Shown one piece after another: positions 11,705 to 52,031 of a DNA stretch of 64,000 nucleotides (positions within the stretch are counted from its first letter, which is position 1; every line of letters begins with the position of its first letter). A model generated the notes under the pieces. It was given only the letters and a program-made list of their open reading frames with translations, was not told the DNA's origin and searched no databases. The translations under genes and the position numbers were made by a program. Origin of the DNA: Actinomycetospora chiangmaiensis DSM 45062 (lineage in GTDB: Bacteria; Actinomycetota; Actinomycetes; Mycobacteriales; Pseudonocardiaceae); contig NZ_KB903240.1 in assembly GCF_000379625.1 (NCBI RefSeq), forward strand, positions 62,195-126,194, read 5' to 3'.

Positions 11705-11719
11705 TTCCCGACGACGGGT
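11705..11719 (+). repeat. Iterated 15-mer TTCCCGACGACGGGT (exact copy, intergenic)
   Basis: An exact copy in the gap between the AAA ATPase gene and the small membrane-protein gene, followed by CGGG. It is one of eight exact copies in the window. Confidence 0.8.
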
Positions 11720-11904
11720 CGGGCCGCGCGCCGCGCGGTCGCCGCCCGGTGGACGGGTCCGGGCGCCGGATCCGGTGACCGCACGAACGGGTCCGGCGCG
11801 GCGAGGACGGATCTCCCCGGGTCTCGACACCCACACGAGTTGACTCCCCGCCCTGCGACGAACCAGCCGGTTCGTCGGCTTTCGACCGGGTCGGGGGGCT
11901 CGCG

Positions 11905-12066
11905 ATGAAGACGACACTGGTGGCGGCCGCGGCGGTGGTGGTCGCCCTCGTGCTGGTGCCCGGGAGCGGCGACGGCCCCCTGGGCATGACCCTCGGCGGC
12001 GCCGCGGTGCTGGCGCTGTTCGCCGGGATCGCGGTGTGGATCCGTCGCACCATGTCGCACCACTGA
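11905..12066 (+). CDS. Small two-helix membrane protein
   Basis: A 53-codon frame starts at an ATG eight bases after a GGGGGG Shine-Dalgarno-like run and ends at TGA. The product starts MKTTLVAAAAVVVALV, has a short GSGDGPLG turn, a second hydrophobic segment around GGAAVLALFAGIAVWI, and ends RRTMSHH. This is the pattern of a two-pass or secreted-plus-anchor small protein. I do not recognise a family. It is convergent with the MFS gene; a long hairpin follows its stop. Support comes from the ribosome-binding site, the hydrophobic layout and the codon pattern. Confidence 0.6.
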   Translation: MKTTLVAAAAVVVALVLVPGSGDGPLGMTLGGAAVLALFAGIAVWIRRTMSHH

Positions 12067-12162
12067 TGCGGGCCCGCACCCGGGTCTGACTCGTAGACGA
12101 GGCGTCACTCAACCGGCTCCCGGGGGCAGCCGGAGCCGGACAGGTGGCGTCTCGGCCCTCGG

Positions 12163-12240
12163 CATGATCACGTCGAGGGGACGCTCATGGCTGTTCCGAA
12201 GATCGACAACAGCCATGGTGGTCCCCCCGACGTGATCATG
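12163..12240. terminator. Long hairpin between convergent genes (33-base arms)
   Basis: Left arm 12163-12195 and right arm 12208-12240 pair at all but about four positions around a 12-base loop; the outer ends read CATGATCACGTCGAGGGG and its near complement. It lies between the stops of the small membrane protein and the MFS gene, where a bidirectional terminator is expected. It has no T-tract. The remainder of the 270-base gap holds nothing else I can support. Confidence 0.6.
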
Positions 12241-12336
12241 GGTCGATGAGCAGGTCTCGCGGGCCGGCACGAGCGTGGCGCGCTGCTGACGTCCGGCGTC
12301 AGCCGTGTGCCACCGCTGACACACCACGGCGCCACC

Positions 12337-13575
12337 TCAGCGCGCGGCGCCCACCGGGAGGCGCGACCCGTCGTCGGGAAGGCGGACCCGGCGTCGGGAG
12401 AACCACATCCCCAGCAGTCCGACCAGGAGCACCGGGACGTGCACGGCCATGGCGACGCGGAAGACACCGGTGTCCCACGCGGCGGGTGAGCCGGCGCCCT
12501 GCAGGTCGAGCAGCACCCCGACCAGGGCGACGACCAGCAGCGACGACACGAAGCCGCCCACGTTCGTCATCCCCGAGGCGCGGCCGATCGACGCGGGCGG
12601 TACGGCGGAGCGGGCGACGTCGAACGCCACGAGCGACGCCGACCCCCCGCTGGCCAGGATCACCACCAGGACCACGAGCAGCGCGAACGGCACCGGTCCG
12701 GGCCAGGCGAGCACCACGCACCACGCGACGGCCTGCGCCACCACCGAGCCGGTGACCAGCATGACCCGGCGGTGCGGGAACCGGCCGGAGAACAGCCCGA
12801 ACAGCGGGCCGAAGAGGATGGTCACGAGCACGACGCCGCTGGTCATCACCCGCGCCGGGCCGACCGGGACGCCCTCACCCGCCGTCAGGAACGGGAAGCC
12901 CCAGAGCAGGCCGAAGACGTTCGCCGAGAACGGTGACGCGAAGTGGCACCAGAAGCCGAGCCGGGCGCCGGGGCTCGCGACGACCTCGCGCATCCGTCCC
13001 GGTTCGGCGGCGCCCGCGACCTCGAGCGGACCCGGCCGCACGATCAGCGCGGCGGCGACCGCCACGACTCCGGTCGCGCCGCCCGCGACGAGGTAGGCGG
13101 CGGTCCAGCCGGAGGAGACGACGAGGCCGGCGAGCGGGATGGCCGACACCGCCTGCCCGAACTGGCCGAGGATGCCGGAGAGCTGGTTGACGACGGGGAC
13201 CCGACGCGGGGCGAACCAGGTCGGCACCAGCCGCAGGACGCTGACGAACATCACCGCGTCGCCGGCCCCGGCGAGGACCCGCCCCACCACGGCCACGGGG
13301 AACGACGGCGCGACGGCGAGCAGCACCTGCCCGACCGCGACGAGCACGGCCCCGCCCGCGATCAGCCGTCTCGGCCCGAACCGGTCGACGAGCATCCCGG
13401 CGGGGATCTGCAGCGCGGCGTACACCCCGAGCGAGAGCACGGCGAGCAGCGAGAGCACGCCGGCCGAGACGCCGAAGCGCTCCGCGGCGACCGGCCCCGT
13501 CGCCGCCAGGGCCGAGCGACCCGTCACCGAGCAGACGTACGCGACGACCGCGGTGCCCCAGACGAGCAGCCTCAC
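12337..13575 (-). CDS. MFS transporter
   Basis: A 412-residue, twelve-helix major facilitator. It starts VRLLVWGTAVVAYVCSV, has the motif-A-like loop VDRFGPRRL after helix 2, and PTWFAPRRVP before the second bundle. The start is the GTG overlapping the stop of the upstream metallo-hydrolase gene (GTGA); eleven more codons are open upstream but would overlap that gene further. The last ten codons contain an exact copy of the iterated 15-mer, giving a C-terminal RLPDDGSR. The substrate cannot be inferred; closest resemblance by eye is to nitrate/oxalate-type or drug MFS proteins. Confidence 0.88.
   Translation of the reverse strand: MRLLVWGTAVVAYVCSVTGRSALAATGPVAAERFGVSAGVLSLLAVLSLGVYAALQIPAGMLVDRFGPRRLIAGGAVLVAVGQVLLAVAPSFPVAVVGRVLAGAGDAVMFVSVLRLVPTWFAPRRVPVVNQLSGILGQFGQAVSAIPLAGLVVSSGWTAAYLVAGGATGVVAVAAALIVRPGPLEVAGAAEPGRMREVVASPGARLGFWCHFASPFSANVFGLLWGFPFLTAGEGVPVGPARVMTSGVVLVTILFGPLFGLFSGRFPHRRVMLVTGSVVAQAVAWCVVLAWPGPVPFALLVVLVVILASGGSASLVAFDVARSAVPPASIGRASGMTNVGGFVSSLLVVALVGVLLDLQGAGSPAAWDTGVFRVAMAVHVPVLLVGLLGMWFSRRRVRLPDDGSRLPVGAAR
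12366..12380 (-). repeat. Iterated 15-mer TTCCCGACGACGGGT (exact, inside MFS C-terminus)
   Basis: An exact copy on the minus strand, read in the MFS gene as LPDDGS about nine codons before its stop, in a non-conserved tail. Confidence 0.8.
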
Positions 13576-14507
13576 AGCGTCCGGGAGCCCCCGATCGCGA
13601 GGTCCCACAGGTCGTCGCGGTCGCGGCCGTCACGGGCCCACGCCCGGCGGGTCGCCTCGATCGGTTCGAGGGTCGGTTCCCCGGAGAGCACGAAGGTGCC
13701 CCAGTGCACCGGGACCATCCGCCGTGCCCCGACCGTCCCGGCGGCCCGCACGGCCTCGACCGGATCCATGTGCACGGTGCGCAGCAGCTCGCGCGGCGCA
13801 TACGCCCCGACCGGGAGTACCGCGACCTCGATGTGCCGGTGCCGCCCGGCGATGCGGCGCAGGAACGGCCCGGTCGCGGTGTCGCCCGCGTGGTAGACGG
13901 CCCGACCGTCCGGGGCGGTGACCACCCACCCGCCCCAGAGGCGGTGGCACAGGTCGGTGAGGGTGCGCCGCGACCAGTGCCGGGCGGGGACGAACTCGAC
14001 CCGGACCTCGCCGGACAGCCCGGTGAACCCGACCGAGGACCACCAGTTCAGCTCGACGACGTCGGTGAACCCCCGGGCCCGGAAGAACGCGGCCGTGTTC
14101 AGCCCGGCCACGATCCGCGTCGAGCGCGGCATCGCCCCGAGGGTGCGCACGTCGAGGTGGTCGTAGTGGTCGTGGCTGATCAGCACCGCGTCGATCCGCG
14201 GGAGCGTCTCGACCGTCCGACCCGGCGGCGTCAGGCGCCGGGCGGCCCCGGGGATGCCCGGCGACAGCACCGGGTCGACCAGCACGGTGACGCCGTCGAC
14301 CCACAGCAGCGCCGACGCGTGCCCCAGCCAGGTCACCCCCAGCGTTCCCGACGACGGGTCGGGCAGCGGCGCCTCCGGCGTCACCGGGATGCGCGCCGCG
14401 TCGCGGCGCGCGTCGGCGTCGTCGGGGTAGGACCACCACAGCCGGGCGGCCCCGACCGGACCGAGCAGCGTCGAGTCGAGGCGGTGACGGAAGTCCGGGA
14501 CGACCAC
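13572..14507 (-). CDS. Metallo-beta-lactamase-fold hydrolase, NAPE-PLD/UlaG-like
   Basis: The 311-residue protein has a lipid/phosphodiester-hydrolase type metallo-beta-lactamase domain: VTWLGHASALL, strand DGVTVLVDPVLS, metal motif SHDHYDHLD near residue 112, ARHWSRRT, YHAGDTATG with a metal-bridging Asp, and a late PVHWGTF. This set is typical of N-acyl-phosphatidylethanolamine phospholipase D-like and UlaG-like proteins. It starts with GTG one base after the SCO1664-type gene, and its stop overlaps the MFS start, so the three form one unit. An exact 15-mer copy lies near residues 50-55 (PSSGT). The substrate is unknown. Confidence 0.88.
   Translation of the reverse strand: MVVPDFRHRLDSTLLGPVGAARLWWSYPDDADARRDAARIPVTPEAPLPDPSSGTLGVTWLGHASALLWVDGVTVLVDPVLSPGIPGAARRLTPPGRTVETLPRIDAVLISHDHYDHLDVRTLGAMPRSTRIVAGLNTAAFFRARGFTDVVELNWWSSVGFTGLSGEVRVEFVPARHWSRRTLTDLCHRLWGGWVVTAPDGRAVYHAGDTATGPFLRRIAGRHRHIEVAVLPVGAYAPRELLRTVHMDPVEAVRAAGTVGARRMVPVHWGTFVLSGEPTLEPIEATRRAWARDGRDRDDLWDLAIGGSRTL
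14345..14359 (+). repeat. Iterated 15-mer TTCCCGACGACGGGT (exact, inside metallo-hydrolase)
   Basis: An exact copy on the plus strand, antisense to the gene, which reads it as PSSGT in a linker before the conserved VTWLGHAS strand. Confidence 0.8.
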
Positions 14508-16745: not shown

Positions 16746-17585
16746 TCAGGTGGCGGGCACGACGCCGCCCAGGACGGCGAGGAGCACGACCAGACCGAGC
16801 AGCACGCGGTACCAGACGAACACGTAGATGGTGTGGTTCTCCACGTAGCGCAGCAGCCAGGCGATCGACGCGTAACCGACGCCGAAGGCGATGAGGGTCG
16901 CGACGAGGATCTGGGCCCAGCTCGACGTCACCTGGCCCGGCAGGGCCGGCTCGCCGATGTCCTTGAGCTTGTAGAGGCCCGACGCGAACACGGCGGGCAG
17001 CGCGAGCAGGAACGAGAACCGCACCGCGACGGCCCGCTCCAGCCCGAGGAAGAGCCCCGCGCTCGTCGTCGCACCCGAGCGCGAGACGCCCGGGATCAGG
17101 GCGAGCATCTGCCCGAGGCCCATGAGCACCCCGTCGCGCAGGGTGAGCTGGTCGGCGCCGCGGCGCTGCCGGCCGTACTTCTCGGCCGCCGCGAGGACCA
17201 GGCCGAAGATGATCAGCACGGAGGCGTTGAGCGCGAGGTTGCGCGCCGGGCCGTCGATGAGGTCCTGGAAGAGCAGGCCTGCCACGCCGATCGGCAGCGA
17301 GCCGAGCCCGACGTACCAGGCGAGGCGGTAGTCGTACCCGCGCTCGTCCCGGTTCCGCAGGCCGCGGAACCAGGCGCGCACCAGCCGCTTGATGTCCGGC
17401 CAGAAGTAGAGGAGCACGGCGAACTCGGTGCCGAGCTGCGAGACCGCGGTGAACGCGGACCCGGCGTCGTGACCGAAGAAGAAAGCCGAGGTGAACCGCA
17501 GGTGGGCCGACGAGGAGACGGGCAGGAACTCCGTCAACCCCTGGACCAGACCGAGGGTGATCGACTCCAACCAGGTCATCTGCAC
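16746..17585 (-). CDS. uppP: Undecaprenyl-diphosphatase
   Basis: UppP (BacA) recycles the cell-wall lipid carrier by removing a phosphate from undecaprenyl diphosphate at the membrane, and gives bacitracin tolerance. The 279-residue, multi-helix protein has both signatures: [11 protein letters not shown] near residue 19 and [13 protein letters not shown] near 165. It is the first gene of the leftward conserved cluster (Rv2136c equivalent). Start GTG at 17585 lies nine bases after a TACCGT hexamer; the ATG two codons later is the alternative. Confidence 0.96.
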
Positions 17586-18933: not shown

Positions 18934-18962
18934 GTCCGGGGGCGCCGCGTGCTCCGGTGGTC

Positions 18963-18997
18963 GCAAAGCGTCGTTGCGTGCATCCAGTGGCAGGAAG
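18963..18997 (+). repeat. 35-base interspersed repeat, copy 1
   Basis: Starts GCAAAGCGTCGTTGC and continues through CATCCAGTGGCAGG. It matches the copies at 25105-25139 and 52117-52151 (minus strand) at about 29 of 35 positions each. Here it is a half element: the complementary arm is replaced, a few bases on, by the iterated 15-mer. It lies between convergent genes. Confidence 0.7.
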
Positions 18998-19003
18998 GCC
19001 GCT

Positions 19004-19018
19004 TTCCCGACGACGGGT
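19004..19018 (+). repeat. Iterated 15-mer TTCCCGACGACGGGT (exact copy, intergenic)
   Basis: An exact copy seven bases after the 35-base repeat, in the gap between convergent DUF5703 and quinone oxidoreductase genes. Confidence 0.8.
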
Positions 19019-19079: not shown

Positions 19080-20030
19080 TCATGGCACGACGACGACCCG
19101 GCCCGTCGTGGTCCGGGCCGCGATGGCGTCGAGCGCTTCGGGCAGCTGCTCCAGCGAGTACTCGGCGCCCACGAGCGGGTCGATGGCGCGGCGGGCCCAC
19201 AGGGCCTCGAGCTCCCGCTGCCACGCGTCGACCAGCTCGGGCGCGCGCTTCTGGTACGCCGCCCAGTGCACGCCGACCACGTCGTAGTTCTTCACCAGCG
19301 CGTGGTTGGTCGGGGCGTCGGCGATCCGCCCGCTCGCGAACCCGATCACGAGGATGCGGCCCTCCCACGCCACGACGCGGCGGGAGGCGTCGAAGGTGTC
19401 GCCGCCGACCGGGTCGTAGACCACGTCCACGCCCCGACCGTCGGTCAGCTCCTTCACCGGCGCGATGAGGTCCGAGGCCTCCCCGACCACCAGCACCTCG
19501 TCCGCCCCGAGCGACCGGGCGACGGCCGCCTTGTCCGCCGACCCCACGGTCGCGATCACCCGCGCGCCCGCAGCCTTGCCCAGCTGCACGGCGGCCGCGC
19601 CCACGCCCCCGGCCGCGGCGTGCACGAGCAGCGTGTCGCCCGCCGAGAGCGTCGTCCGGTGGTGCAGCGCGCACCAGCCCGTCTGGTAGGCCACCCAGAA
19701 GCCGGACGCCTGCGCGGCCGACATCCCCTCGGGCCACGGGTACGCCCAGGCGAGCGAGGCGTACTCCGCGTACCCGCCGTGCGGCATGGCCGCCGGGCCG
19801 AAGACCCGCTCCCCCGTCTCGACGTCCTCGCCCGCCACCTCGAGGCCCGGCGTGAACGGCAGCGGTGGCTTCTCCTGGTACGTGCCGCGGCAGTACAGGA
19901 TGTCGGCGAAGTTGACCGAGGACGCCGCGACCCGCACCACCCGCCGTCCGGAACCAGCAGGCTCGGGCAGGTCCGTGAGCGACAGGACCTCCCGCGGCTC
20001 CCCGAACGACGTCACGGTCCAGCCGCGCAC
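19080..20030 (-). CDS. NADPH:quinone oxidoreductase family protein
   Basis: A 316-residue zinc-free MDR protein. It begins VRGWTVTSFGEPREVL, has SVNFADILYCRGTYQ (QOR substrate-side motif), and the dinucleotide motif HAAAGGVGAAAVQLGKAAG near residue 138, then DVVYDPVGGDTF. The C-terminus ends TTGRVVVVP. The GTG start is placed two bases after the SDR stop, with GGGAGG in the SDR end as ribosome-binding site. The frame extends far upstream but through the SDR gene. It forms a unit with the SDR and the M20 peptidase. Confidence 0.9.
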   Translation of the reverse strand: MRGWTVTSFGEPREVLSLTDLPEPAGSGRRVVRVAASSVNFADILYCRGTYQEKPPLPFTPGLEVAGEDVETGERVFGPAAMPHGGYAEYASLAWAYPWPEGMSAAQASGFWVAYQTGWCALHHRTTLSAGDTLLVHAAAGGVGAAAVQLGKAAGARVIATVGSADKAAVARSLGADEVLVVGEASDLIAPVKELTDGRGVDVVYDPVGGDTFDASRRVVAWEGRILVIGFASGRIADAPTNHALVKNYDVVGVHWAAYQKRAPELVDAWQRELEALWARRAIDPLVGAEYSLEQLPEALDAIAARTTTGRVVVVP

Positions 20031-22294: not shown

Positions 22295-22309
22295 TTCCCG
22301 ACGACGGGT
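22295..22309 (+). repeat. Iterated 15-mer TTCCCGACGACGGGT (exact copy, intergenic)
   Basis: An exact copy immediately after the tRNA-Leu terminator and 35 bases before the cold-shock gene start. Confidence 0.8.
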
Positions 22310-24405: not shown

Positions 24406-25592
24406 GCCCCCTGGTCCTGGCCGCGATCCTGGCCGTGGTCTCGACCTTCCCGGCGATGGCCCTCGGTGGCCCGCCCGCCGTCGTGGCCGTCGTCGCCGCC
24501 CTCGGGCTGCTCTCGCTCGCCGCGGTGCGCCTGCCGGTACGACGGCAGGTGCCGGCCGCCCTCGTCGCGGTCGTCGTCGCAGCGCTGGTGGTCGCGTTCG
24601 TGCTGGGGCCGCCGTCATGGGTGCCCGGGGTGGGCAGCGACCGTGCCGACGCCCTCGACGTCGCCCTCACCCGGCTCGCCGGCGGGCTCTACCCGTACAC
24701 CGGCGTGACGTACCTGGGGAACCCGATCACCCCGCTCCCCGGGTCGCTGGTGCTCGCCGCGCCGGTCTGGGCGCTGACCGGGCACGCGGCGGGGCAGAAC
24801 GTCCTGTGGACCCTCGTGCTGCTCCCGGTCCTGAACGGCGGGTGGCGGCTGCGCCCGGCCCCGACGCTGCTGTGGACGCTCGTCGTGATCACCCCCGAGG
24901 TGCTGCGGGAGTACCTCGTGGGCGACGACCTCGTGACCAGCGTCGTCCCCGCCGTCGCCGCCGCGGCGTGGGTCCTGCGCGCCCGGTCCCCGCTGGTCCT
25001 GACGACGGGTGCGGTCGCCCTGGGCATCGCGACCTGCACCCGGCCGCACCTGGCGCTCGTCGTCGTGATCGTGGCCGTGGCGGTGGGGCTGCGCCCCGAT
25101 GACAGGAAAGCGTCGTTGCTTGCACCCAGTGACAGCAACGACGCTTTCCTGTCATGGAGGAGGGGCCTGCTCGTCGGCGGGATCGGCGCGCTCACGTGGG
25201 CCGTGCTGATCGTGCCGTTCCTGCTCGGCGGGACCGACCGGTTCTCCCCGCTGCACGTGGGCGCCAAGGTGACCGGCGAGCGCGGCCTGCACCCGGCCAT
25301 CGTCGTGATCGCCCTCGTGGCGCTGATCGTCCTGGTCGCGGCGCTGCTCCGGGTGCGCCCGACGAGCGAGAGCGCGGTCGGCTGGTGCGCCGCGGCCGTG
25401 CTGATCGCCCCGACCGTGCTCTCCGCCGGGTTCTGGCTCCTGCTCACCGGCGGCGTGTCGCAGGCGGACCTGACCCTCGGGGCCGGCGCGGTGCCGTTCG
25501 CCGCGTGGGCACTCGCCCGTTCGCGAGGCGAGGATCCGAGCGCTCATGTGGTGCGAGGGTTCCCCTCACGCCGGAGGAGGGTGCGCGCGTGA
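24402..25592 (+). CDS. Multi-pass membrane protein, glycosyltransferase-87-like
   Basis: A 396-residue hydrophobic protein with about nine or ten membrane segments. After two N-terminal helices comes an extracytoplasmic GLYPYTGVTYLGNPITPLPGS loop typical of polyprenyl-phosphate-mannose-dependent glycosyltransferases (GT87/DUF2029), then TCTRPHLALVVVI. Family is probable, not certain. Its most striking feature is a 57-base perfect hairpin (25099-25155) within the coding region, read in frame as about 19 hydrophilic residues (DRKASLLAPSDSNDAFLS) in a loop between two helices. The start overlaps the upstream stop and the end overlaps the downstream GTG. Confidence 0.75.
   Translation: MSPLVLAAILAVVSTFPAMALGGPPAVVAVVAALGLLSLAAVRLPVRRQVPAALVAVVVAALVVAFVLGPPSWVPGVGSDRADALDVALTRLAGGLYPYTGVTYLGNPITPLPGSLVLAAPVWALTGHAAGQNVLWTLVLLPVLNGGWRLRPAPTLLWTLVVITPEVLREYLVGDDLVTSVVPAVAAAAWVLRARSPLVLTTGAVALGIATCTRPHLALVVVIVAVAVGLRPDDRKASLLAPSDSNDAFLSWRRGLLVGGIGALTWAVLIVPFLLGGTDRFSPLHVGAKVTGERGLHPAIVVIALVALIVLVAALLRVRPTSESAVGWCAAAVLIAPTVLSAGFWLLLTGGVSQADLTLGAGAVPFAAWALARSRGEDPSAHVVRGFPSRRRRVRA
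25099..25155. repeat. Perfect 22-bp hairpin inserted in frame in a membrane-protein gene
   Basis: Arms 25099-25120 and 25134-25155 are exact reverse complements around a 13-base loop. The outer ends read ATGACAGGAAAGCG and its complement. The length is 57 bases, a multiple of three, so the host frame is kept. The interior (25105-25139) belongs to the 35-base repeat family. Confidence 0.85.
25105..25139 (+). repeat. 35-base interspersed repeat, copy 2
   Basis: Reads GGAAAGCGTCGTTGC then a TGCACCCAGTGACAG core. It shares about 29 of 35 positions with the copy at 18963. This is the copy with a complete complementary arm, and the only one within a gene. Confidence 0.7.
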
Positions 25593-26383
25593 GCGTCTTC
25601 GTGCCGTGGGGCACCTCGCACGTCGTCGTCGTGGTCCTCACCGTGGTCGGTGCGGTCGCGCTGGTGCCGTTCGGGCGGAGGGCGCCCGCAGCCGTCGTCG
25701 GGAAGGCCGAGAAGGCCCTCGCGGTGCTGCTCGTCGTCACGACCCTCGCCTACCAGGTCTACGCGTTCGAGCCGGGCCGGGCGGGGCAGACGCTGCCGCT
25801 GTGGCTCTCCGACCTCGTGCCCTACGTCGCGGCGTACGCGTTGTGGACCGGGCGGCAGTGGGCCTACGGCATGACCTACTACTGGGCGCTGACGCTCACC
25901 GTGCAGGCCATCGCCACGCCCGCCCTCGCCGGCCCGGACTTCCCGGCGCCGAGCTTCCTCGCCTTCTTCACCGCGCACGTGCTGCCGATCTGGGCGGCGG
26001 TGCTGCTGACCTGGGGTCGGGGACGACGCCCGACCTGGGCCGACTACGGGCGGACGGTGGCCGCCACGCTGATCTGGGCCGCCGTCGCGCAGCCGGCGAA
26101 CCTGCTCACCGGCGCGAACTACGGCTACCTCGACCGGAAGCCCGACGCCGCCTCGGTCCTCGACCTGTTCGGCCCGTACCCGGTGTACCTGCTGGTCGAG
26201 GCGGTCGTCGTGCTCGCGGTGTGGGCGGTGATCACCGTGGTGTGGAGCCCGCCGTGGACCGGTAGCGGCCGAAGCCCACGGCCACGTCCTCGGGCGCGAG
26301 CAGAGGCGGTTCCGGACACGCCGGACCCTGCGGCCAGCCCGACGGCGAGTCCTCCCAGTCCTCGCGCCGACCGTACGGAGTGA
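25589..26383 (+). CDS. TIGR02206 (YwaF-like) membrane protein
   Basis: A 264-residue protein with seven hydrophobic segments. It has the family features FVPWGTSH at the start, LPLWLSDLVPYVAAYAL, YYWALTLTVQAIATPAL and ANYGYLDRKPDAASVLDLFGPYP. The role of TIGR02206 proteins is unknown. The GTG start overlaps the previous stop and is preceded by GGAGGAGGG. The last 45 residues are Pro/Arg/Ala-rich and overlap the convergent DUF899 gene by 152 bases, so the natural stop may have been lost and the tail is probably junk read-through. Confidence 0.82.
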   Translation: MSVFVPWGTSHVVVVVLTVVGAVALVPFGRRAPAAVVGKAEKALAVLLVVTTLAYQVYAFEPGRAGQTLPLWLSDLVPYVAAYALWTGRQWAYGMTYYWALTLTVQAIATPALAGPDFPAPSFLAFFTAHVLPIWAAVLLTWGRGRRPTWADYGRTVAATLIWAAVAQPANLLTGANYGYLDRKPDAASVLDLFGPYPVYLLVEAVVVLAVWAVITVVWSPPWTGSGRSPRPRPRARAEAVPDTPDPAASPTASPPSPRADRTE

Positions 26384-31151: not shown

Positions 31152-31166
31152 TTCCCGACGACGGGT
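31152..31166 (+). repeat. Iterated 15-mer TTCCCGACGACGGGT (exact copy, intergenic)
   Basis: An exact copy in the 40-base gap between the P450 stop and the tautomerase start; it makes up more than a third of the gap. Confidence 0.8.
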
Positions 31167-35487: not shown

Positions 35488-35616
35488 CGCTGTCCTGCAT
35501 CCTTCCGGGGTCCACGACGGGTCGATGACCACGATAAACGGACCCCCCGACAGCCATCCCGACACCGTGCCCCGGGTCGACGAAGCCCGGTGAGCCGTCG
35601 TCGGGAAGGGCGGACC

Positions 35617-39159: not shown

Positions 39160-41001
39160 TCAGCGACGGGCGGCCAGCAGATCCCGGGCGGCCCGGTCCT
39201 CGGCCAGCCCGGCCCGGTGCCACTGCACCAGCAGGATCACCAGGACGCCGACGAGCGGGAGGTCGCCCATGCCCCACGACAGCAGGGCGGCGAGGTGCTG
39301 GTCGGCGAGCAGGTCCGGCGCCCAGGGCAGGCGCAGCCGGGAGTAGAAGTCGGTGACGAACACCTGGCCGCCCCCGCCGTCGGCGGCGAGCGTCGACGGC
39401 GTCTGCGCCACCGGGGTGTCCGCGGCCAGCAGGATCACGCCGAACAGCGCGTGGAACGGCATCGAGGCGATGAGGACGGCGAGCCGCGCGACGTGCGGGA
39501 GCTTCTGGCCGGGCGTCGGGTCGACGCCGACGAGCACCCAGAAGAACAGGTAGCCCGCCGTCAGGAACCACGCGGAGATCGCCGGCATCAGCCAGCCCAA
39601 CGGCTGGAGCAGCGAGAACAGCGGCGTGAGGTAGAACGCGAACGGCGAGCCCACCATGACGACGGCGGCGACGGCCGGGTGGGTCAGGAACCGCAGCAGC
39701 GGGGCGTCGAGCACGGCCTCGAGCCGGTCCCGGGCGTCGCCCTGCTCGGGCAGCGCCCGCCGCGCGAGCGACACCGGGCCACCCAGCACGAGCAGCACCG
39801 GCACCACGATGCTCACCAGCATGTGCTCGGCGACGTGCACGCTGAACAGCGCGTCGGCGTAGCGGCCGATCCCGGACGACGTCGCCACGACCAGCAGCGC
39901 GCAGCCCGCGAACCACGAGAACGCCCGCGCCCTCGGCCAGCCGTCCACGCGCCGCAGCCAGCGGGCGTAGCCGACGACCAGCACGGCCACGAGCACGAGG
40001 AACCACACGTCGGGCCGCCAGTCCCCGAGCAGGCGCCCGAGTGTCGGCGGGTCGGGGATGCCGAAGCCGAGCACCGCCTCGGTCGGGGTGGTGTGGAACG
40101 GGGCCTGCACCGGCGGCACCGCCCGGGTCATCGCCACCGACAGACCGGTGACGACGGCGAGCAGGGTCAGTTCCAGCAGCACCACGCGCCGCGAGCCGCC
40201 CACCCGCCGCCGCACGAGCACGCCCAGCCCCACGACCGTCACGGCCGCGGCGAGCAGCACCAGCACCCCGTAGGCCGTCGCGAGCTCACCCCACGACGGG
40301 ACGAGCACCGCCGACGCGAGCACGCCGCTCGCCACCGTCACGACCGCGCACATCGTGGACACCGTGCCGCTGCGCGCGGGCGAGGCCGGGGCCACGAGCA
40401 GGGCGCCGACGGTCCCGAGCCAGACGGTCGCCGCGATCACGTGCAGGGCGACCGCCGGGGTGCCGAGGTCCTTGCCGACCCCGTCGATCGCGTGCCCGGT
40501 CATCACCGGCCCGAGCAGGGCCACGCCCGCGAGCACGCCGGCGCCGAGCGTGGAGGACCAGGTCCGCGCCTCGCGCACCCACACCGCCACCACGGCCGCG
40601 CCGATCGCGCACGCCAGCCAGCCGATCGGCGCCGCGCGCACCACCATCCCGACGACGAGGTCCGGTCCTGGCGCGACGAACCCGCCGGAGACGTCCGCGA
40701 CGGTGAACACCGCCGTCCCCGCGGCCAGCGCGGCCCAGGCCCAGGCGGCCCCGGAGGCCACCACCCGCACCGACGCCGACGGCCCGCCGGTCCCGGGCGC
40801 GACCACCAGTCCGTGCACGAGGGCCCCGAGCACGACCGCCGCCGCACCCGCCGTCAGGACACGGAGCAGCGGCAGCCCGAGCTGGACGAGCTCGCCGGGG
40901 TCGACGAGGCCGAGCACGGGATAGGCGGAGCGGCCGAGGAGCAGCGCGGCGACGAGGACCGTCACCAGGCCCGCGGCGCCTGCGGGGACGAGGCGCCTCA
41001 C
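39160..41001 (-). CDS. CopD/CtaG fusion membrane protein (copper handling)
   Basis: A 613-residue polytopic protein. The N-terminal half has the CopD copper-resistance fold with TGHAIDGVG and ALHVIAATVWLGTVGALL (conserved His in a helix). The C-terminal half is a CtaG_Cox11-type (caa3-CtaG) domain: VHVAEHMLVSIVVP, FAFYLTPLFSLL, MPFHALFGVILL and LADQHLAALLSWGMGDLP, each with metal-ligand His. M. tuberculosis Rv0102 is the same type. It probably inserts or imports copper for cytochrome oxidase. The GTG start overlaps the upstream stop (GTGA). It lies near the copper-type ATPase. Confidence 0.92.
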   Translation of the reverse strand: MRRLVPAGAAGLVTVLVAALLLGRSAYPVLGLVDPGELVQLGLPLLRVLTAGAAAVVLGALVHGLVVAPGTGGPSASVRVVASGAAWAWAALAAGTAVFTVADVSGGFVAPGPDLVVGMVVRAAPIGWLACAIGAAVVAVWVREARTWSSTLGAGVLAGVALLGPVMTGHAIDGVGKDLGTPAVALHVIAATVWLGTVGALLVAPASPARSGTVSTMCAVVTVASGVLASAVLVPSWGELATAYGVLVLLAAAVTVVGLGVLVRRRVGGSRRVVLLELTLLAVVTGLSVAMTRAVPPVQAPFHTTPTEAVLGFGIPDPPTLGRLLGDWRPDVWFLVLVAVLVVGYARWLRRVDGWPRARAFSWFAGCALLVVATSSGIGRYADALFSVHVAEHMLVSIVVPVLLVLGGPVSLARRALPEQGDARDRLEAVLDAPLLRFLTHPAVAAVVMVGSPFAFYLTPLFSLLQPLGWLMPAISAWFLTAGYLFFWVLVGVDPTPGQKLPHVARLAVLIASMPFHALFGVILLAADTPVAQTPSTLAADGGGGQVFVTDFYSRLRLPWAPDLLADQHLAALLSWGMGDLPLVGVLVILLVQWHRAGLAEDRAARDLLAARR

Positions 41002-41438
41002 GGATCGAGGCGGCCGGGGAACCGGGCGCGGTACTCGTCCAGGTGCTGGGACTTGCAGACGTGCTGTTCCTTCTCGTTGATGGCCTGGCGCATGCACTCG
41101 TCGAGCGTGCGGGCCTGCGAGGCGTGCAGGTAGGTCACCGCGGACTCGAGGGTCGGCCACTCGATCACCGTGCCGATCACCACGGCGATCAGGGCCACAC
41201 CCAGGGCGGCCAGCGGCTTACCGCGACCTGACGCGCGGCCCGACCGCACCCGCATCAGCGCGACCACCGCGGCGACCAGCGCGACGAGCCCCAGCGCCAT
41301 GCCGCCCCAGCCCGTCCAGGCGCTGACCAGGGCCATCGCGGCCACGACCAGCGCGAACGTGGCCGCGCCGGTCGCGCCCGAGCCGCCGGAGCCGTCGTCG
41401 GGAACGGTCTCCGGGGCCGCCGAGCTCGTGCTGCTCAC
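40998..41438 (-). CDS. Small membrane protein (DUF4190-like)
   Basis: A 146-residue protein. It begins with a Ser/Pro/Gly-rich segment (the one-mismatch 15-mer lies here and is read VPDDGS), then two helices around [16 protein letters not shown] and [17 protein letters not shown], a third near [17 protein letters not shown], and a C-terminal soluble tail with paired Cys ([19 protein letters not shown]). It resembles DUF4190-like small actinobacterial membrane proteins; the fit is loose. GTG start at 41438 follows a weak CACCAT hexamer by seven bases. Co-directional with the CopD/CtaG gene. Confidence 0.7.
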
Positions 41439-41496: not shown

Positions 41497-43701
41497 ATGA
41501 CCGTCGCACCCGCCCGGGAGGACCGGAGCGAGGACTTCCTGCTCACGGGGATGACGTGCGCCGCGTGCGCGTCGCGGATCGAGCGGCGGCTCAACAAGGT
41601 CGACGGCGTGATCGCGCAGGTGAACTACGCGACGGAGCGGGCGACGGTCACGCTGCGTCCCGACGTGGAGCGCTCGACGGTCGTCGACGTCGTCGCGAAG
41701 CTGGGTTACGGCGCGACACCGCTGTCCGTGCCCGAGGCCGAGCTCGACGACGTCGCGGCGGTCCGTGACGACCGGGTCGCGGACCTCTGGCGGCGCCTCG
41801 TGGTCGCGGCGGTGCTGTTCGTCCCGATGGTCGACCTGCCGCTGGTCCTCTCGGTCCTGCCCGCGGCGCGCTTCCCCGGGTGGGAGTGGGTCGTCGCAGC
41901 GCTCGCGGCACCCGTCGTCCTGTGGTCGGCGTGGCCGCTGCACCGGGCGGCGTTCGTCAACGCCCGGCACGGCGCGTCGTCGATGGACACGCTGATCTCG
42001 CTCGGCGTCATCGCGGCGACCGTGTGGTCGCTCGGCTCGATCCTCACCGGACAGCTGCCCGACCCGTCGGCGGGCGCGCTGCGCGTCTTCCTCGACCCGG
42101 TCGGCCCGCTCTACCTCGAGGTCGCCGCCGCGGTGACGACGTTCGTGCTCGCGGGGCGCTACGTCGAGGCCCGCGCCAAGCGCTCCGCCGGCGACGCGCT
42201 CGCCTCACTGGCCGCCCTCGCCGCACGCGACGTCGCCGTCCTGCTCCCCGACGGCACCGAGGCGCGCATCCCGGCCGCCTCGCTCGCCGTCGGGACCCGC
42301 TTCGTGGTCCGGCCCGGCGAGAAGATCGCCACCGACGGGACGGTGGAGGGCGGCGCCTCCGCGGTGGACCGGTCGATGCTCACCGGTGAGACCGTGCCCC
42401 TCGAGGTCGGCGCGGGCGACGCCGTGACCGGCGGGACCGTGGCGACCTCCGGCCGCCTCGTCGTCACCGCCACCGCGGTCGGCGGCGCGACGCAGCTCGC
42501 CGGGATGATCCGGCTCGTCGAGTCGGCGCAGGCATCGAAGGCGTCGGTGCAGCGGCTGGTCGACCGCATCTCCTCCGTCTTCGTCCCCATCGTCATCGGG
42601 CTCGCGGTCCTGACGGCGCTCGGCTGGTGGGTCGCCGGCGGCACCGCCGGGGACGTGTTCTCCGCAGCCCTCGCCGTCCTGGTGATCGCCTGCCCGTGCG
42701 CACTCGGCCTCGCGACGCCCACCGCGATGCTCGTCGCCTCCGGACGTGGCGCCCGCGAGGGCATCTTCCTCAAGAGCCACCAGGCGCTGGAGACCTCGCG
42801 CGTGGTCGACACGGTGGTGTTCGACAAGACCGGCACGGTCACCACGGGCGCGATGACGGTGCGGTCGGTGCACCTCGTCGACGACGGTTCCCGACGGCGG
42901 GTGCTCGAGATCGCGGGCGCGGTCGAGGACGCATCGGAGCACGCCGTGGCGCGGGCGGTGGTGGCGTGTGCCCGGGCGGAGGTCCCGGACTTCCCGGCCG
43001 TCGACGGCTTCGAGGCGCTGCCCGGACTCGGGGCCCGCGGGGTCGTCGACGGCGTCGAGGTGCGGCTGGGGAAGCCTCAGACGGCCCTGCCCGTGTGGGC
43101 CCCGGCGCCCGCGGCGGACTCGACGCTCGTCGTCGTGACCCTCGACGGCACGGAGGCCGCGGTGCTGGAGCTGGCCGACGAGGTGAAGCCCTCGGCGGCC
43201 CCCGCGATCGCCCGCCTGCGCGCGGCCGGGCTGCGGACCGTCCTGCTCTCCGGCGACCGGTCGGAGGCCGCCGCCGCCGTCGGCACGGCCGTCGGGGTCG
43301 ACGAGGTGATCGCCGACGTCCTGCCCGCGGGCAAGGTCGAGGCGCTGACGGCGCTGCAGTCCGGGGGCCGCCGGGTCGCGATGGTCGGCGACGGCATCAA
43401 CGACGGTCCCGCGCTCGCCGCCGCGGACCTCGGGCTGGCGGTGGGTGCCGGCACCGACGTGGCCCTCGACGCGGCCGACGTCATCCTGGTGCGCGACGAC
43501 CTCGGCGCCGTCCCGGACGCGCTCGACCTCGCCAGGCGTACCGCCACCACGATCCGCCGGAACCTGGTCTGGGCCTTCGGCTACAACGTCGCCGCGATCC
43601 CGCTGGCCGCCCTCGGCCTGCTCAGCCCGCTCATCGCGGGCCTGACGATGGCGCTGTCCTCGGTGCTCGTCGTGACCTCGAGCGTGCGGCTGCGGAACTG
43701 A
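41497..43701 (+). CDS. ctpA: Copper-type P1B ATPase (CtpA-like)
   Basis: This membrane ATPase exports Cu+ or a related ion. The 734-residue protein has one N-terminal HMA domain with [12 protein letters not shown] near residue 18, the A-domain [11 protein letters not shown], the membrane metal site [14 protein letters not shown] near 398, the phosphorylation motif DKTGTVT near 442, the hinge [11 protein letters not shown] near 630, and the later Tyr-Asn (FGYNVAA) and Met-Ser-x-Ser (MALSSV) Cu+ signatures. In the nucleotide-binding domain the usual Ser-Glu-His-Pro is Ser-Glu-His-Ala near 480. The start (ATG) has CACCAT and GGAG closely upstream. It is divergent from the CopD/CtaG pair, forming a copper locus. 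Confidence 0.95.
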
Positions 43702-43705
43702 GCCC

Positions 43706-44455
43706 CTACGACGCCCGCCGACGCCGTTCGGCCAGGACCGCCGTCAGGTAGGTCTCGGCCGGGATTCCCGACGGCGGGTCGGGCGCGACCCGCGCGGCGA
43801 CGTCCGTCGCGAGCTGCTCGCCCAGCGTGCGCCGGACCGCCGGGTCCAGGTCGCCGGCGCGGGCGAGGAACTGCCGGGCGGCGAGGGCGAGGTCGTCGGG
43901 CAGGGCGGCGAGCTGGAGGGTCGAGGCCCAGCCGGCGAGCGCGGGGTCGGGCGCGGGCAGCGTCGGGTGGCGGGTGGACCGCGGGACCCGGTCGCGGAGC
44001 ACGATCGTGCCCGCGAGCAGGTCGCCGACCCGCTGGCCGCGCCGGGTGCACGCCGAGACCACGATCGCGACGACCCCGCTCGCGAGGCCGAAGTCGACGA
44101 ACAGTCCGGCCAGGGCGCGGACAAGGGCCTGCCGGAACCGGATCGGCCCGCCGTCGTCGGAGACCACCCGCAGCCCGAACGCCAGCTTCCCGGGCGTCCG
44201 ACCCCGGGTGAGCGTCTCCCACGCGGTCGGCCACACCACGAACCCCAGCACCGCGAGGACGACGCCGACCGTCGCGGCCAGCGCCACGTCGAGATCGGCC
44301 CCGCTCACCACCACGGCGACCAGCGCCGCCACCATGAGCGTCCCGACGATCGCGAGATCCAGGGCGAACGCGAGGGCCCGGCTCGGTAGCTTGGCGGGAG
44401 CGAGATCGAGTTCGACCGCCTCGCCGATCACGACGCCGGGATCCGGTGGGGTCAT
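43706..44455 (-). CDS. RDD family membrane protein
   Basis: A 249-residue protein of the RDD family: LAPAKLPSRALAFALDLAIVG (the Arg-Asp pattern is partly changed), WETLTRGRTPGKLAFGLRVVSDDGGP (highly conserved RDD segment) and CTRRGQRVGDLLAGTIVL. The cytoplasmic C-terminal 80 residues are helical. It is the Rv3695 equivalent in the conserved moxR2 locus. ATG start, divergent from SpoIIM. A one-mismatch 15-mer (43765-43779) lies in its C-terminus. Confidence 0.9.
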   Translation of the reverse strand: MTPPDPGVVIGEAVELDLAPAKLPSRALAFALDLAIVGTLMVAALVAVVVSGADLDVALAATVGVVLAVLGFVVWPTAWETLTRGRTPGKLAFGLRVVSDDGGPIRFRQALVRALAGLFVDFGLASGVVAIVVSACTRRGQRVGDLLAGTIVLRDRVPRSTRHPTLPAPDPALAGWASTLQLAALPDDLALAARQFLARAGDLDPAVRRTLGEQLATDVAARVAPDPPSGIPAETYLTAVLAERRRRAS

Positions 44456-45453: not shown

Positions 45454-46771
45454 AGCCGCCCCCGCGCCTTCAACGCGAGGTACCGGTCGGCGACGGCGGG
45501 GGCGAGGTCGTCGGGCAGGGCGTCGACCACCTCGACGCCCCGGCGCTGCAGCCGCCCCACCACGGCGCGGCGCTCCTCCCGCGCCACCGTCGCCGCGGCC
45601 GCGCCGTACACCGCCTCCCCCGAGCCGCGGCCGGTCGCGAGCGACGCCACGGCCGGGTCGGCCACCCCGGCGACCAGCATCGTGTGCCGGTGCAGCAGCG
45701 GGCCGAGCACGGACTCCAGACCCTCCGCCACGGCCGCGTCGTCGAGCCCGGTGAACAGCACGACCAGTGACCGCCGGGACGCCCGCGTCAGCACGGTCGC
45801 GGCGAGCAGCCGCATGTCGGTCTCCACCAGCGCGGGCTCGACGCCGGACAGGGCCGTCGTCATCGCGGGCAGCGGGTCGCGGGCGCCGATCACCGAGGCG
45901 CGCACGGCCCGGTCGAGCGCGAGCAGGTCGACGCGGTCCCCGCCGCGGGCCGCCAGCGCCGCGAGCAGCAGCGCCGCGTCCAGGGCGGCGTCGAGCCGGG
46001 GCGCCTCCCCGCTGCCTCTCCCCGTCGCTGCGCTCGCCTCCACCAGGCCCGCGGACGTCCGGCCGGTGTCGAGCACGACCAGCACGTGCCGGTCCCGCTC
46101 CGGGCGCCAGGTCCGGACGACGAGGTCCGAGGACCGCGCCGAGGCCCGCCAGTCGATCGACCGCACGTCGTCGCCCCCGACGTACTCGCGCAGCGAGTCG
46201 AACTCGGTGCCCGCGCCGCGGACCTGCACCGCCCGCAGGCCGTCCAGTTCCCGCAGCCGCGCCAGCCGGGCCGGGAGGTGCCGTCGCGACGCGAACTCGG
46301 GCAGCACCCGCACCCGCCCGCCGACCCTCCGCGTGCCCTGCCGGCCCGCCAGCCCCAGCGGGCCCCACGCGCGCACCGTCACCGCGGCCGCGGCGAGCTC
46401 ACCGCGTCGGGCGGGCACCAGCGTCGTCGTGACCCGTCGCCGTTCCCCCGCCGGGACGTCGAGCCGGTGGGAGTCGGGACGGGCGCCGCACGACGGCGGC
46501 CACGCGTCGCGCACGAGCCCCACCACCCGTCGTCGGGAAGGATTCACGACGACGAGCGTGGTCGCGACCTCCTCGCCGAGGCGTACCTGCACGGTCTCCT
46601 CGGCGCGCTCCAGGCGCAGCGCGGCGGGCGAGCCGGCCCGCGCGAGGTCGATCACCACCGCCACGAGCAGCGCGGCCAGGATCCCGAGCACGCCGGCAGG
46701 CGAGGGCACGGCCAGCCCGACGACGAGGGCTCCGACGACCGCCGCCAGCGCCAGCCGACCCGAGATCGCCA

Positions 46772-49466: not shown

Positions 49467-49473
49467 GTCCCGC

Positions 49474-50655
49474 TCACGCCAGCCCGTGAGCGGCCCGCTG
49501 CAGCTCGATGTCGAAGCCCTCGCGGCGCATCCGCTGGTCGATGTAGAGCAGGCCGGTGACGCCGGCCTGGAACGGGGCGGTGAGCGCGGTGCCGATCACG
49601 CTGCCCACGGAGGAGATCAGAAGCGGCCCGACCGTGTAGGGACTGGTGCCCACCGCGGCCGCGACCGCGGCGGCACCGCCCCCGAACGGGATGCCGATGA
49701 TCCCGGCGATGATCAGCACGATCACGTAGGTCAGCAGCAGCGTGCCGAGGATCGCCCAGAAGCGGCCGCTGACGAGCGTGCGCGAGCGGGACAGGGCGGC
49801 GACCACCCCGACGCCCTCGAGGACGTAGGCCGGGGCCGCGAGGGAGAGCAGGACACCGACGACGAGGGACGCGACGGCGCCCACCAGGATCCCGAGCACC
49901 AGCAGCCCGGCGGCGAGCGTCGTCGATCCGGCCAGGTAGGCGAGGCCGGCGGGCACGAGGCACACCACGAAGGCGGCCGCCCCCACCAAGGCCACGAGCA
50001 CGACGACGCCGAGCAGCCCGGGCAGCCGGGGCCGGGCCGCGTTCCAGCACTCCCGGGCGTCGACCGGGGCACCGAGTACCGAGCGGGACAGGACGACCAC
50101 GAGCAGGCCCGTCAGCACCGTGTTGGCGAGCAGCCCCACCACGGCGGACGCCCCGAGCAGCGCCGCCGCCCCGCCGATCACCCCGGAGAGGCGGGCGAGG
50201 TCCGGCGTCGTGCCCGCGGGGCCGACGAAGGCCTCGAGCGACTGCCCGTAGAAGGCCTGGAACGGGGCCTGGATGAGCGTGGTGACCACCGCGACCACCG
50301 CCGACACCCCGAGCACGACCCTCGGGTGCGCCCGGATGTACTGGAACGCGCCGTCGAGCAGCTCGCCCAGCGCGAGCGGGCGCAGCGGCACGATCCCGGG
50401 CCGCGGCGAGGCGACCGGGCCGCCGAAGCCCCACGGGTCACCGGCCGGCGGGGCCGTGCGCGGCACCTGGGCCGGCGGGGGCCCCTGAGGCGGCCGCGGC
50501 GGCCCCGGCGGCGTCGAGCCCGGGCTCTGCCACCCGCCGGTCGGTTGCTCGGCCGGCCGCTCGCTCGCCGGGCCGGTCGGCTCCCAGGGCGGGACGCCGT
50601 CCGAGCCGGACCCCGCCCCGTCGTCGGGGCTCCTGCGGTCCTGCGGCTCGCCCAC
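49474..50655 (-). CDS. Glycerophosphodiester-phosphodiesterase-membrane-domain-like protein
   Basis: A 393-residue protein. The first 90 residues are Pro/Gly-rich and disordered (a core copy of the 15-mer lies here at 50617-50628). Then comes LRPLALGELLDGAFQYIRAHPRVVLG, the hallmark of the membrane domain found in some GdpD proteins and in MoxR-operon proteins, followed by about six helices and a closing IDQRMRREGFDIELQRA, which is the cytoplasmic signature. First gene of the leftward MoxR operon; GGAGAGGA lies just before the GTG. Its function is unknown. Confidence 0.85.
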   Translation of the reverse strand: MGEPQDRRSPDDGAGSGSDGVPPWEPTGPASERPAEQPTGGWQSPGSTPPGPPRPPQGPPPAQVPRTAPPAGDPWGFGGPVASPRPGIVPLRPLALGELLDGAFQYIRAHPRVVLGVSAVVAVVTTLIQAPFQAFYGQSLEAFVGPAGTTPDLARLSGVIGGAAALLGASAVVGLLANTVLTGLLVVVLSRSVLGAPVDARECWNAARPRLPGLLGVVVLVALVGAAAFVVCLVPAGLAYLAGSTTLAAGLLVLGILVGAVASLVVGVLLSLAAPAYVLEGVGVVAALSRSRTLVSGRFWAILGTLLLTYVIVLIIAGIIGIPFGGGAAAVAAAVGTSPYTVGPLLISSVGSVIGTALTAPFQAGVTGLLYIDQRMRREGFDIELQRAAHGLA

Positions 50656-50717
50656 GGTGTCCTCTCCCGGTCCGACCTGATCGACTTCGTCACCCCCGAT
50701 CGTGCCACGATGGCGCG

Positions 50718-51329
50718 ATGCCTCTCGGGACCGCGCTCTGGCGTCGCCTGGACGAGCCGCACGGGCTCGTCCACGGCGTGATCTCGGAGATGGCGCCGAC
50801 CCCCGAGCAGCCCGACGCGGCGTTCCTGCTGGACGGGGCCGCGCTCGGCGCCGACTCCCCCGACGACACCGGCCCGATCGGCGAGCAGCAGGCCCCGCGC
50901 CCGTGGTCGGCGCGGTTCTCGGTGGTCGTGGACGCGCGGTGGCAGACCCGGGCGTGCTTCCTCGAGGCGCTCGGTGGCGACGGGCTGGACCGGGTCACGT
51001 TGACCGCCGACGCCCTGGGCCGGTGGACGCTCGACGGCCGGCCGTGGCCCGAGCTCGAGGGCTGCCACGACGTCGACATCTCGATCTCCCCGCTGACCAA
51101 CACCCTGGTGGTCCGGCGCCTCGACCTCGCCGTCGGGGAGGAGCGCACCGTCGACGTCGCGTGGGTCGACGTGCCGTCGCTGGCGGTGCGGCGCGTCGCG
51201 CAGACCTACCGCCGGGAGACCGTGGACCGCTGGGTCTACGCCGACCCGCAGTACGGCGCCTTCGGCTTCACCGTGGACCCGCTCGGGCTCGTCCGGGAAT
51301 ACCAGGGGCTGTTCGCGCGGGTCGGCTGA
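50718..51329 (+). CDS. Putative glycolipid-binding protein
   Basis: A 203-residue protein of the glycolipid-binding family (PF06475-like): FSVVVDARWQTRACFLEAL, LDGRPWPELEGCHDVDISISPLTNTLVVRRL, WVDVPSLAVRRVAQTYRR, and YADPQYGAFGFTVDPLGLVREYQGLF. The last two are the diagnostic stretches. Binding to glycolipid is known only for the founding Pseudomonas member. Divergent from the MoxR operon; a CACGAT hexamer lies six bases before the ATG. Confidence 0.88.
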   Translation: MPLGTALWRRLDEPHGLVHGVISEMAPTPEQPDAAFLLDGAALGADSPDDTGPIGEQQAPRPWSARFSVVVDARWQTRACFLEALGGDGLDRVTLTADALGRWTLDGRPWPELEGCHDVDISISPLTNTLVVRRLDLAVGEERTVDVAWVDVPSLAVRRVAQTYRRETVDRWVYADPQYGAFGFTVDPLGLVREYQGLFARVG

Positions 51330-51371
51330 GTAGTCTGGGGCCCCGTCGGGGCCGGCGAGCAAAGGGGTGGC

Positions 51372-52031
51372 GTGCGCAACCGGACACGGGGCCTGCTGGC
51401 ACTCGGCCTGCTCGTCGCGGCCGTGGTGGTGGCGCTCGTCGTGCCGCTGCCGACGCCGACCGAGCTGCGCGAGTGGGTGCTCGCCGTCGGCCCCACCGCG
51501 CCGCTGATCTTCTTCCTCGTGCACGCGATCATCACCACCACACCGATCCCCCGAACCGCCTTCACGCTCGCCGCGGGGCTGATGTTCGGCCCGGTCTGGG
51601 GCATCGCGATCGCCGTCGCGGCGTCCATGGTCTCGGCGCTGGTCGGGTTCTGGATCGCCCGCCGCCTCGGCGGCCGCGCGATCGCCCGGCTCGGCCCGGC
51701 GCGCGTGCGGGCGCTCGAGGAGCGGCTGTGCGAGCGCGAGCTGCTGACCGTGACCTCGTCGCGCCTGGTCGGCATCCCGTTCGCACCGCTGAACTACACC
51801 CTCGGCGTCACCAGCGTGCGCTGGCACGCGTACCTGATCGGCACGCTCGTGGGCCTCGTCCCGGGGACGGCGGCGGTGGTGTTCCTCGGCGACGCCGTGA
51901 CCGGCGGAATCTCGCCGCAGTCGTTCATCGCGTTCGGGATCTCCGGCGGGCTCGGCCTGGTCGGGATCCTGATCTCCGCCCGCGGCCGTCGTCGCCGGGT
52001 GGTCCTTCCCGACGACGGGTCGGCGGCGTAG
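51372..52031 (+). CDS. VTT/DedA-like (TVP38/TMEM64) membrane protein
   Basis: A 219-residue integral membrane protein of the VTT (SNARE-associated/DedA) superfamily: ITTTPIPRTAFTLAAGLMFGPVWG (the conserved re-entrant Gly/Pro segment), WIARRLGGRAIARL, SSRLVGIPFAPLNYTLGVTSVRW, and LVPGTAAVVFLGD. Related proteins are lipid scramblases or flippases for phosphatidylethanolamine or undecaprenyl phosphate. GTG start, AGGGG upstream. Its last eight codons contain an exact copy of the 15-mer (LPDDGS). Confidence 0.9.
   Translation: MRNRTRGLLALGLLVAAVVVALVVPLPTPTELREWVLAVGPTAPLIFFLVHAIITTTPIPRTAFTLAAGLMFGPVWGIAIAVAASMVSALVGFWIARRLGGRAIARLGPARVRALEERLCERELLTVTSSRLVGIPFAPLNYTLGVTSVRWHAYLIGTLVGLVPGTAAVVFLGDAVTGGISPQSFIAFGISGGLGLVGILISARGRRRRVVLPDDGSAA
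52006..52020 (+). repeat. Iterated 15-mer TTCCCGACGACGGGT (exact, at the end of the VTT gene)
   Basis: An exact copy read as LPDDGS, ending three codons before the TAG. It parallels the copy at the end of the MFS gene (12366). Confidence 0.8.

Follow-up and report, generated by a model that had tools for sequence, protein, structure and literature searches.

A highly iterated, asymmetric 15-base word in Actinomycetospora genomes and its likeness to DNA uptake sequences

The DNA analyzed here (the window) is a stretch of 64,000 nucleotides from Actinomycetospora chiangmaiensis DSM 45062 (contig NZ_KB903240.1, positions 62,195 to 126,194), part of a 5.86 Mb genome in 31 contigs (G000) with a GC content of 74%. 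A 15-base word, TTCCCGACGACGGGT, is repeated throughout the window and had been pointed out in a first-pass annotation; it is the form that best fits a degenerate site, which reads roughly KTCMCGACGRCGGGT.

The word and its copies in the 64-kb window

The window holds eight exact copies of the 15-mer, nine copies with one mismatch and eight with two. These 25 matches compare with 0.62 expected and with a maximum of 4 in 100 dinucleotide shuffles. The word had the highest z-score of the repeated 15-mers of the window (8 seen versus 0.001 expected under an order-2 Markov model), in agreement with the earlier estimate of well under one exact copy by chance. Exact copies are denser in the window than on average in the genome (8 in 64 kb versus 1 per 21 kb). 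A weight matrix, described below, detected 36 sites in the window, of which 16 carried the full core TCCCGACGNCGGG. The eight exact copies listed in the first-pass annotation were all recovered with position and strand. Its eight one-mismatch places were real as well, except that one was off by a base (25690, not 25691) and a ninth, at 6741, had been missed. A "core" that it placed at 50617 is a three-mismatch match at 50616 on the minus strand and fell below the site threshold, as did the two-mismatch matches at 6169 and 58933. The earlier observation is thus correct, and understated.

Genes were predicted with a simple home-made gene finder, and their ends are approximate. Exact copies lie on the plus strand between divergent genes (11705-11719), where the word is kept in congener G135 though its flanks have indels; between convergent genes (19004-19018), overlapping the right end of a hairpin repeat; in an intergenic position right after a terminator-like hairpin with a T run (22295-22309), with an identical copy in G042, G135, G098, G075 and G219; and in a 40 nt intergenic gap (31152-31166). 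Two are close to the stop end of a gene, at 36 nt (12366-12380, minus strand) and at 18 nt (52006-52020, plus strand; identical in G042 and G135). The remaining two lie inside genes, at 14345-14359 (plus strand, opposite to the gene) and 46525-46539 (minus strand). The other sites with the full core include one with three mismatches to the 15-mer between convergent genes (4866-4880, plus strand), which is not kept in G042, and one with two mismatches whose start is 20 nt away from that of the exact copy at 12366 (12386-12400, minus strand). The rest have one mismatch and were found 57 nt from a stop end (6741-6755, minus strand; identical in G042 and G135), 66 nt from a stop end (43765-43779, plus strand), and inside genes at 32036-32050, 61537-61551 and 63399-63413 on the minus strand and 42888-42902 on the plus strand.

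Further weight-matrix sites with one mismatch lie on the minus strand at 25690-25704, 35593-35607 (intergenic) and 41390-41404 (not kept in G042 or G135). Those with two mismatches are at 125-139, 12877-12891 and 19939-19953 on the minus strand and at 24996-25010 and 28264-28278 on the plus strand. Weaker sites were detected on the minus strand at 10182-10196, 17459-17473, 25055-25069, 26763-26777 (intergenic), 40846-40860, 42282-42296 and 43125-43139, and on the plus strand at 38439-38453, 40646-40660, 46543-46557 (3 nt beyond the exact copy at 46525-46539), 52712-52726 and 54786-54800.

Hairpin-type repeats are interspersed in the same DNA. Repeats at 12163-12242 and ~12261-12335 have copies elsewhere in G000, G042, G135 and G075 with 81-91% and 83-95% identity, respectively. 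A second family (AAAGCGTCGTTGC...) occurs at 18951-19007, 25087-25167 and 52118-52161 and also in G042; in its copy at 18951-19007 the repeat leads directly into the word at 19004. The hairpins of other species differ (AAGGGCCCCT pairs in G135, AACGTGCCCC pairs in G178).

Counts among relatives and the shape of the recognized site

Genome G000 contains 273 exact copies (139 on the plus and 134 on the minus strand) in its 5.86 Mb versus 0 for the reversed word, which answers the genome-wide count that the first-pass annotation had proposed as a check. Within one 400 kb block there were 23 exact copies, whereas 30 words with permuted letters occurred 0.03 times on average. Exact copies were present in 16 of the 297 family genomes examined, nine in the window's genus and seven outside it with one copy each. 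Nine of the 18 congeners had 273, 257, 219, 193, 192, 19, 10, 6 and 1 copies; five of the 18 (hereafter, carriers) thus have 192-273, and the genomes of 45 other genera of the family at most one. The 13-base core was found 1043 times in G000, 1383 in G042, 1094 in G135, 1034 in G075 and 906 in G098. Intermediate counts were obtained in G219 (225), G200 (238) and G258 (124; this genome is 59% complete), and 10-32 in the ten remaining congeners; the reversed control occurred 0 to 4 times per genome in the 18 congeners.

These counts bear on the simplest explanation, a by-product of codon use or base composition, which the first-pass annotation had also raised. Such a by-product would suit a GC-rich word in a window where CGACGACG is common. 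However, the non-carrier G178 has the same GC content as G000 and an equal supply of CGACGNCG (2183 versus 2156 in 400 kb), yet 1 core site versus 80; moreover, the copies are enriched between genes and occur in several frames and on both strands. The counts refute this explanation, and we give it practically no chance.

In a scan of named genomes, at least 103 stretches had an exact copy, among them at least 48 from Actinomycetospora (Pseudonocardiaceae); among the matches listed, A. soli accounted for at least 20 stretches, A. termitidis for at least 13 and A. sp. NBRC 106378 for at least 10. Stretches with two copies, among the matches listed, were all from Actinomycetospora. At least 55 others were single copies in scattered taxa, and these look like background. 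A phage link was considered and rejected, the 34 viral stretches with one exact copy each being taken as background. A midpoint-rooted RecC tree of 15 of the 18 congeners (without G227 and G250, which have short contigs, and G258, in which no RecC was found) separated the carriers and two intermediates from eight non-carriers by a deep split with 100/100 support; it did not settle how G098, the intermediates and the other four carriers branch. The word is probably about as old as the clade of carriers and intermediates.

The degeneracy of the site was determined from three 400 kb carrier blocks (each ~7% of a genome) with G178 as background. One-letter variants of the 15-mer were mostly at positions 1, 10 and 15, and one-letter departures from the core, after subtraction of the background, were mostly at positions 2, 4, 5, 13 and 14 and rare at 3, 6-9, 11 and 12. 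The near-fixed part consists of C3, GACG at 6-9, C11 and G12, and positions 1, 2, 4, 5, 10, 13-16 and 18 are soft. This tolerance was position-specific in the three carriers, not a uniform decay. The resulting weight matrix carries 20.7 bits and further favours C at position -1, either C or G at position 16, and G at position 18. Run over 1.2 Mb, it detected 511 sites, of which 24 would be expected from the background (a false-positive rate of ~5%); scaled up, this amounts to ~2,500 sites per genome. No sequence is shared around the copies beyond ~20 bp.

The dyad CCCG...CGGG, in which the first-pass annotation had seen a possible binding site, is present, but the recognized site is asymmetric: position 10 prefers A, G or C over the T that a palindrome requires, and C4 or G13 changes without its partner. 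The dyad is therefore not the rule of recognition. A palindrome was rejected because the arms change without compensation, and an RNA hairpin for the same reason and because copies occur in both orientations to genes. The word had also been likened to the HIP1 octamer of cyanobacteria, a case in which a DNA methyltransferase and a repair bias would create and keep it. Both are highly iterated and clade-restricted with a fixed centre, and deviations in HIP1 are mostly outside that centre in the account of PMC4390886, as they are here. HIP1 is, however, an 8-bp palindrome tied to methyltransferases, whereas the present word is asymmetric and no methyltransferase is shared among carriers in the two families tested (PF01555 in 1/5 and PF00145 in 2/5; other methyltransferase families were not searched). 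The likeness is not supported, and we consider an origin of this kind quite improbable.

In a 400 kb block of the intermediate G219, even the near-matches deviate at positions 2, 4, 13 and 14 alone, unlike what free decay would produce. A separate G219 dialect was rejected: the flanking preference is the same but weaker, though with more tolerance at position 13 and less at position 5 in G219 than in the carriers. A different word in the non-carrier G178 was likewise rejected, the top words there being hairpin-repeat ends or one repeated stretch. A 400 kb stretch of G178 (C18:1-400000) contains a GGAGAAGCCGGAGAA repeat in eight copies. In G000, one exact copy lies inside the recC match (C1:308990-309004), likely by chance.

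Siting, conservation and origin of the copies

We determined the siting of 56 exact copies and 249 core sites in the three blocks, with expectations by length. Exact copies were enriched between convergent genes (9 versus 0.6 expected, 15.8-fold), between divergent genes (10 versus 1.6, 6.2-fold) and in the last 60 nt of genes (11 versus 3.1, 3.5-fold). Tandem gaps had 5 (2.5 expected) and the first 60 nt of genes 2 (3.1 expected), and gene middles were avoided (19 versus 45.0, 0.42-fold). The core sites showed the same trend, more weakly. Genic copies lie in several frames, on both strands and in either orientation to the gene. The first-pass description of copies both between and within genes, in several frames and with a preference for gene ends and permissive spots, was thereby borne out. 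If the word were an operator recognized by a transcription factor whose regulon is very large, enrichment in divergent gaps would be expected, and it was found; yet convergent gaps and gene ends are enriched too, the former even more than divergent gaps, and 181 of the 249 core sites are within predicted genes in either orientation. An operator is thus improbable.

Spacing and polarity were analyzed in G042, whose 6.17 Mb form a single contig, with the first 100 of its 219 exact places. The densest 64 kb held 10 copies and corresponds to the region of the window (P 0.015). Core sites, at a density of ~1 per 4.5-5 kb, were slightly more evenly spaced than chance would give in two of the three carrier blocks (P 0.04 and 0.015; 0.24 in the third), and close inverted pairs of copies were not clearly above chance. 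The parB gene is usually close to the replication origin, which was accordingly placed near the sole ParB match of G042, at 4.53 Mb; neither a DnaA box nor parS was found in the 40 kb at either end of G042 or in one 400 kb block of it. With this origin, 49 of the 100 copies were co-oriented with replication, which does not support a polar form of the segregation site suggested earlier; the FtsK-orienting polar sequences (KOPS) and architecture-imparting sequences (AIMS) are asymmetric and genome-wide like the word, but the word showed no polarity in these 100 places. In G042, 257 kb (C1:1919646-2177032) lack an exact 15-mer, and the free positions there more often have other letters. A word-free island was rejected, as the 280 kb fetched contained 60 core sites versus 62 expected; only the exact form was short.

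The same figures bear on a Chi-like site, at which the recombination helicase-nuclease (RecBCD) would pause. The word is asymmetric and GC-rich as Chi is, its core-site density is close to that of Chi in E. coli, RecC was found in 17 of the 18 congeners, and the five carriers have the five lowest RecC family scores of the 17. However, the gene is equally present in non-carriers, and RecC as a fast-evolving reader was rejected, since its divergence follows the species grouping. Known Chi sites are 5-8 nt, far shorter than the 12 fixed positions here, and the word lacks polarity and avoids gene middles. We therefore hold a Chi-like role to be very improbable.

To measure conservation, blocks of G000 and G042 were aligned (89% of the G000 block, 88% identical). 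The blocks share orthologous regions, so sites from different blocks and species pairs are not independent. Copies occupy orthologous places in several species. Of the 12 fixed positions, all were retained in G042 at 45 of the 80 core sites of G000; a further 17 sites were changed, 10 gapped and 8 unaligned. Identity was 90-99% at positions 3-9 and 11-14, 67-83% at positions 1, 2 and 15 (with position 2 at 83%), and 73-88% over the ten bases that precede the word. Position 10, which is within the word yet free and thus an internal control, was 71% identical. In coding DNA the full 13-mer was kept at 28 of 56 aligned sites versus 18.6% of 2,605 flanking 13-mers; in noncoding DNA it was kept at 5 of 16 sites versus 18.1% of 382 flanking 13-mers, a small sample. 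In three other species pairs or directions, the excess was in the same direction. The coding flanks of sites were less identical than random coding DNA (0.850 versus 0.885 over 100 nt, G000-G042; P 7.7e-7), and more divergent flanks are also described for Neisseria uptake sequences in the account of PMC2397512.

Comparison with the non-carrier G178 was possible for 28 of ~60 coding sites of G000. Sixteen were ungapped and differed by 1-6 substitutions each, with 37 of the 60 differences at codon position 3; 21 of the 54 changed codons altered the amino acid, and 5 of the 16 peptides were identical. Judged from these alignments, many copies are built in place by substitutions, often though not always silent. 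The other 12 comparisons were gapped, and at any single one of these sites an insertion may have occurred. These gaps, together with the abundance of hairpin repeats in these genomes and the overlap of one with a copy, are what a mobile or repetitive element (a repetitive extragenic palindrome, REP; a miniature inverted-repeat transposable element, MITE; or a target-site scar) would have in its favour. REP sequences, bacterial interspersed mosaic elements (BIME) and MITEs are also enriched between genes and at gene ends. In contrast to such elements, the shared sequence is at most ~20 bp, the 16 ungapped sites differ by substitutions alone, and copies sit at orthologous places in several species; the chance of a mobile element is very small indeed.

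Candidate machinery and the meaning of the word

Taken together, these results make it a word recognized in the DNA itself and neither a product of codon bias nor a repeat element. With some twelve fixed positions at ~1,000 places, kept between species and rebuilt in place, it must be read by something specific, presumably one protein. ComEC was found in 16 of the 18 congeners and a pilus-type (T2SSE) ATPase likewise in 16, split in G219. In Micrococcus luteus, another actinobacterium, transformation needs ComEC and Flp-pilus genes, as far as the account in PMC4322843 goes. In G219 (inferred A. endophytica), a few-copy species, the ATPase gene is split at the Walker A region with its parts ~57 kb apart (C9:1815236-1872585); in G200, also an intermediate, the ATPase match is as long as in the others. 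Since ComEC and the ATPase fail to distinguish carriers from non-carriers, their presence would allow uptake without pointing to it.

An asymmetric word without polarity, on both strands, in permissive sites and with conserved copies is the pattern of uptake sequences as PMC2397512 describes it for Neisseria. The DNA uptake sequence (DUS) of Neisseria and the uptake signal sequence (USS) of Pasteurellaceae share with the present word a short, non-palindromic form, ~1,000 or more copies on both strands, a strict core that leaves some positions soft, and conservation at permissive spots. Because asymmetry, absence of polarity, both strands and permissive siting recur together in these systems, we favour an uptake-like tag, and the earlier suggestion of a genome-wide word comparable to uptake sites appears supported by this likeness. 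We tentatively read the word as an uptake-sequence-like self-DNA tag in five Actinomycetospora genomes, at a probability of roughly one in three (about 0.36). A sequence-specific receptor would then read the word during DNA uptake, the word would spread by replacement of homologous DNA carrying it, and biased uptake, rather than selection on a chromosomal function, would keep the copies.

Several results weigh against this reading. Uptake sequences are, to our knowledge, without a known case in Gram-positive bacteria. Neither ComEC, the ATPase, RecC nor ParB separates carriers from non-carriers, a TadE model of 43 positions matched in 0 of the 18 congeners (1 of 14 control genomes matched), and no candidate reader was identified among the genes searched. 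Whereas Neisseria sites are mostly in intergenic DNA in the account of PMC2397512, more copies here are within genes than between them, the exact ones included (32 of 56). The same account has Neisseria uptake sequences absent from recently acquired genes; here, stretches of at least 2 kb unique to one genome held 5, 5 and 12 sites versus 5.7, 4.5 and 18.5 expected in the 400 kb blocks, not a clear depletion in what is a weak test. The exact copies of G042 analyzed for spacing were randomly spaced over 3 Mb. The noncoding excess of conservation was small (besides the 5/16 above, 4/10 versus 22.8%, 5/17 versus 23.8% and 7/14 versus 29.9%). The word also differs from DUS and USS in being longer (~15-18 positions) and in occurring in an actinobacterium, with transformation and a receptor as predictions only.

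The main rival is a clade-particular chromosomal architecture protein (nucleoid-associated, occlusion or loop-forming) that binds the word, with sites where they harm genes least. Specific, asymmetric sites conserved on both strands and placed outside gene middles are consistent with it, and so is the slightly even core spacing in two of the three blocks, which fits uptake equally. Known occlusion, terminus and ParB sites are, however, mostly palindromic, far fewer and regional, and the word shows neither the palindrome nor the regional clustering of parS-, Noc- or MatP-type sites. In addition, the ParB gene was present in all 18 genomes, and no clade-specific DNA-binding gene was found, though without a systematic search. 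We judge such a protein less likely than not, but only slightly less probable than the uptake-like tag.

If the uptake-like tag is correct, it may be the first uptake-sequence system in Actinomycetota, evolved de novo in one genus, with ~15-18 positions and three copy levels in sister clades; we regard this wider claim as possible but doubtful. Among the papers searched we found no report of a DNA uptake sequence for Actinobacteria, nor CCCGACGACGGG or its complement in print. Where the reader is known, highly iterated words have shown how bacteria distinguish self from foreign DNA and how such words spread. With copy levels of ~1,000, ~230 and a background of 10-32 within one genus, gain, loss and the reader of the word should be traceable among congeners. 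A chromosome protein that reads the word would have more than a thousand asymmetric sites of its own. An uptake receptor as the reader would make transformation, and with it genetic work, accessible in a group of actinobacteria that has been little studied.

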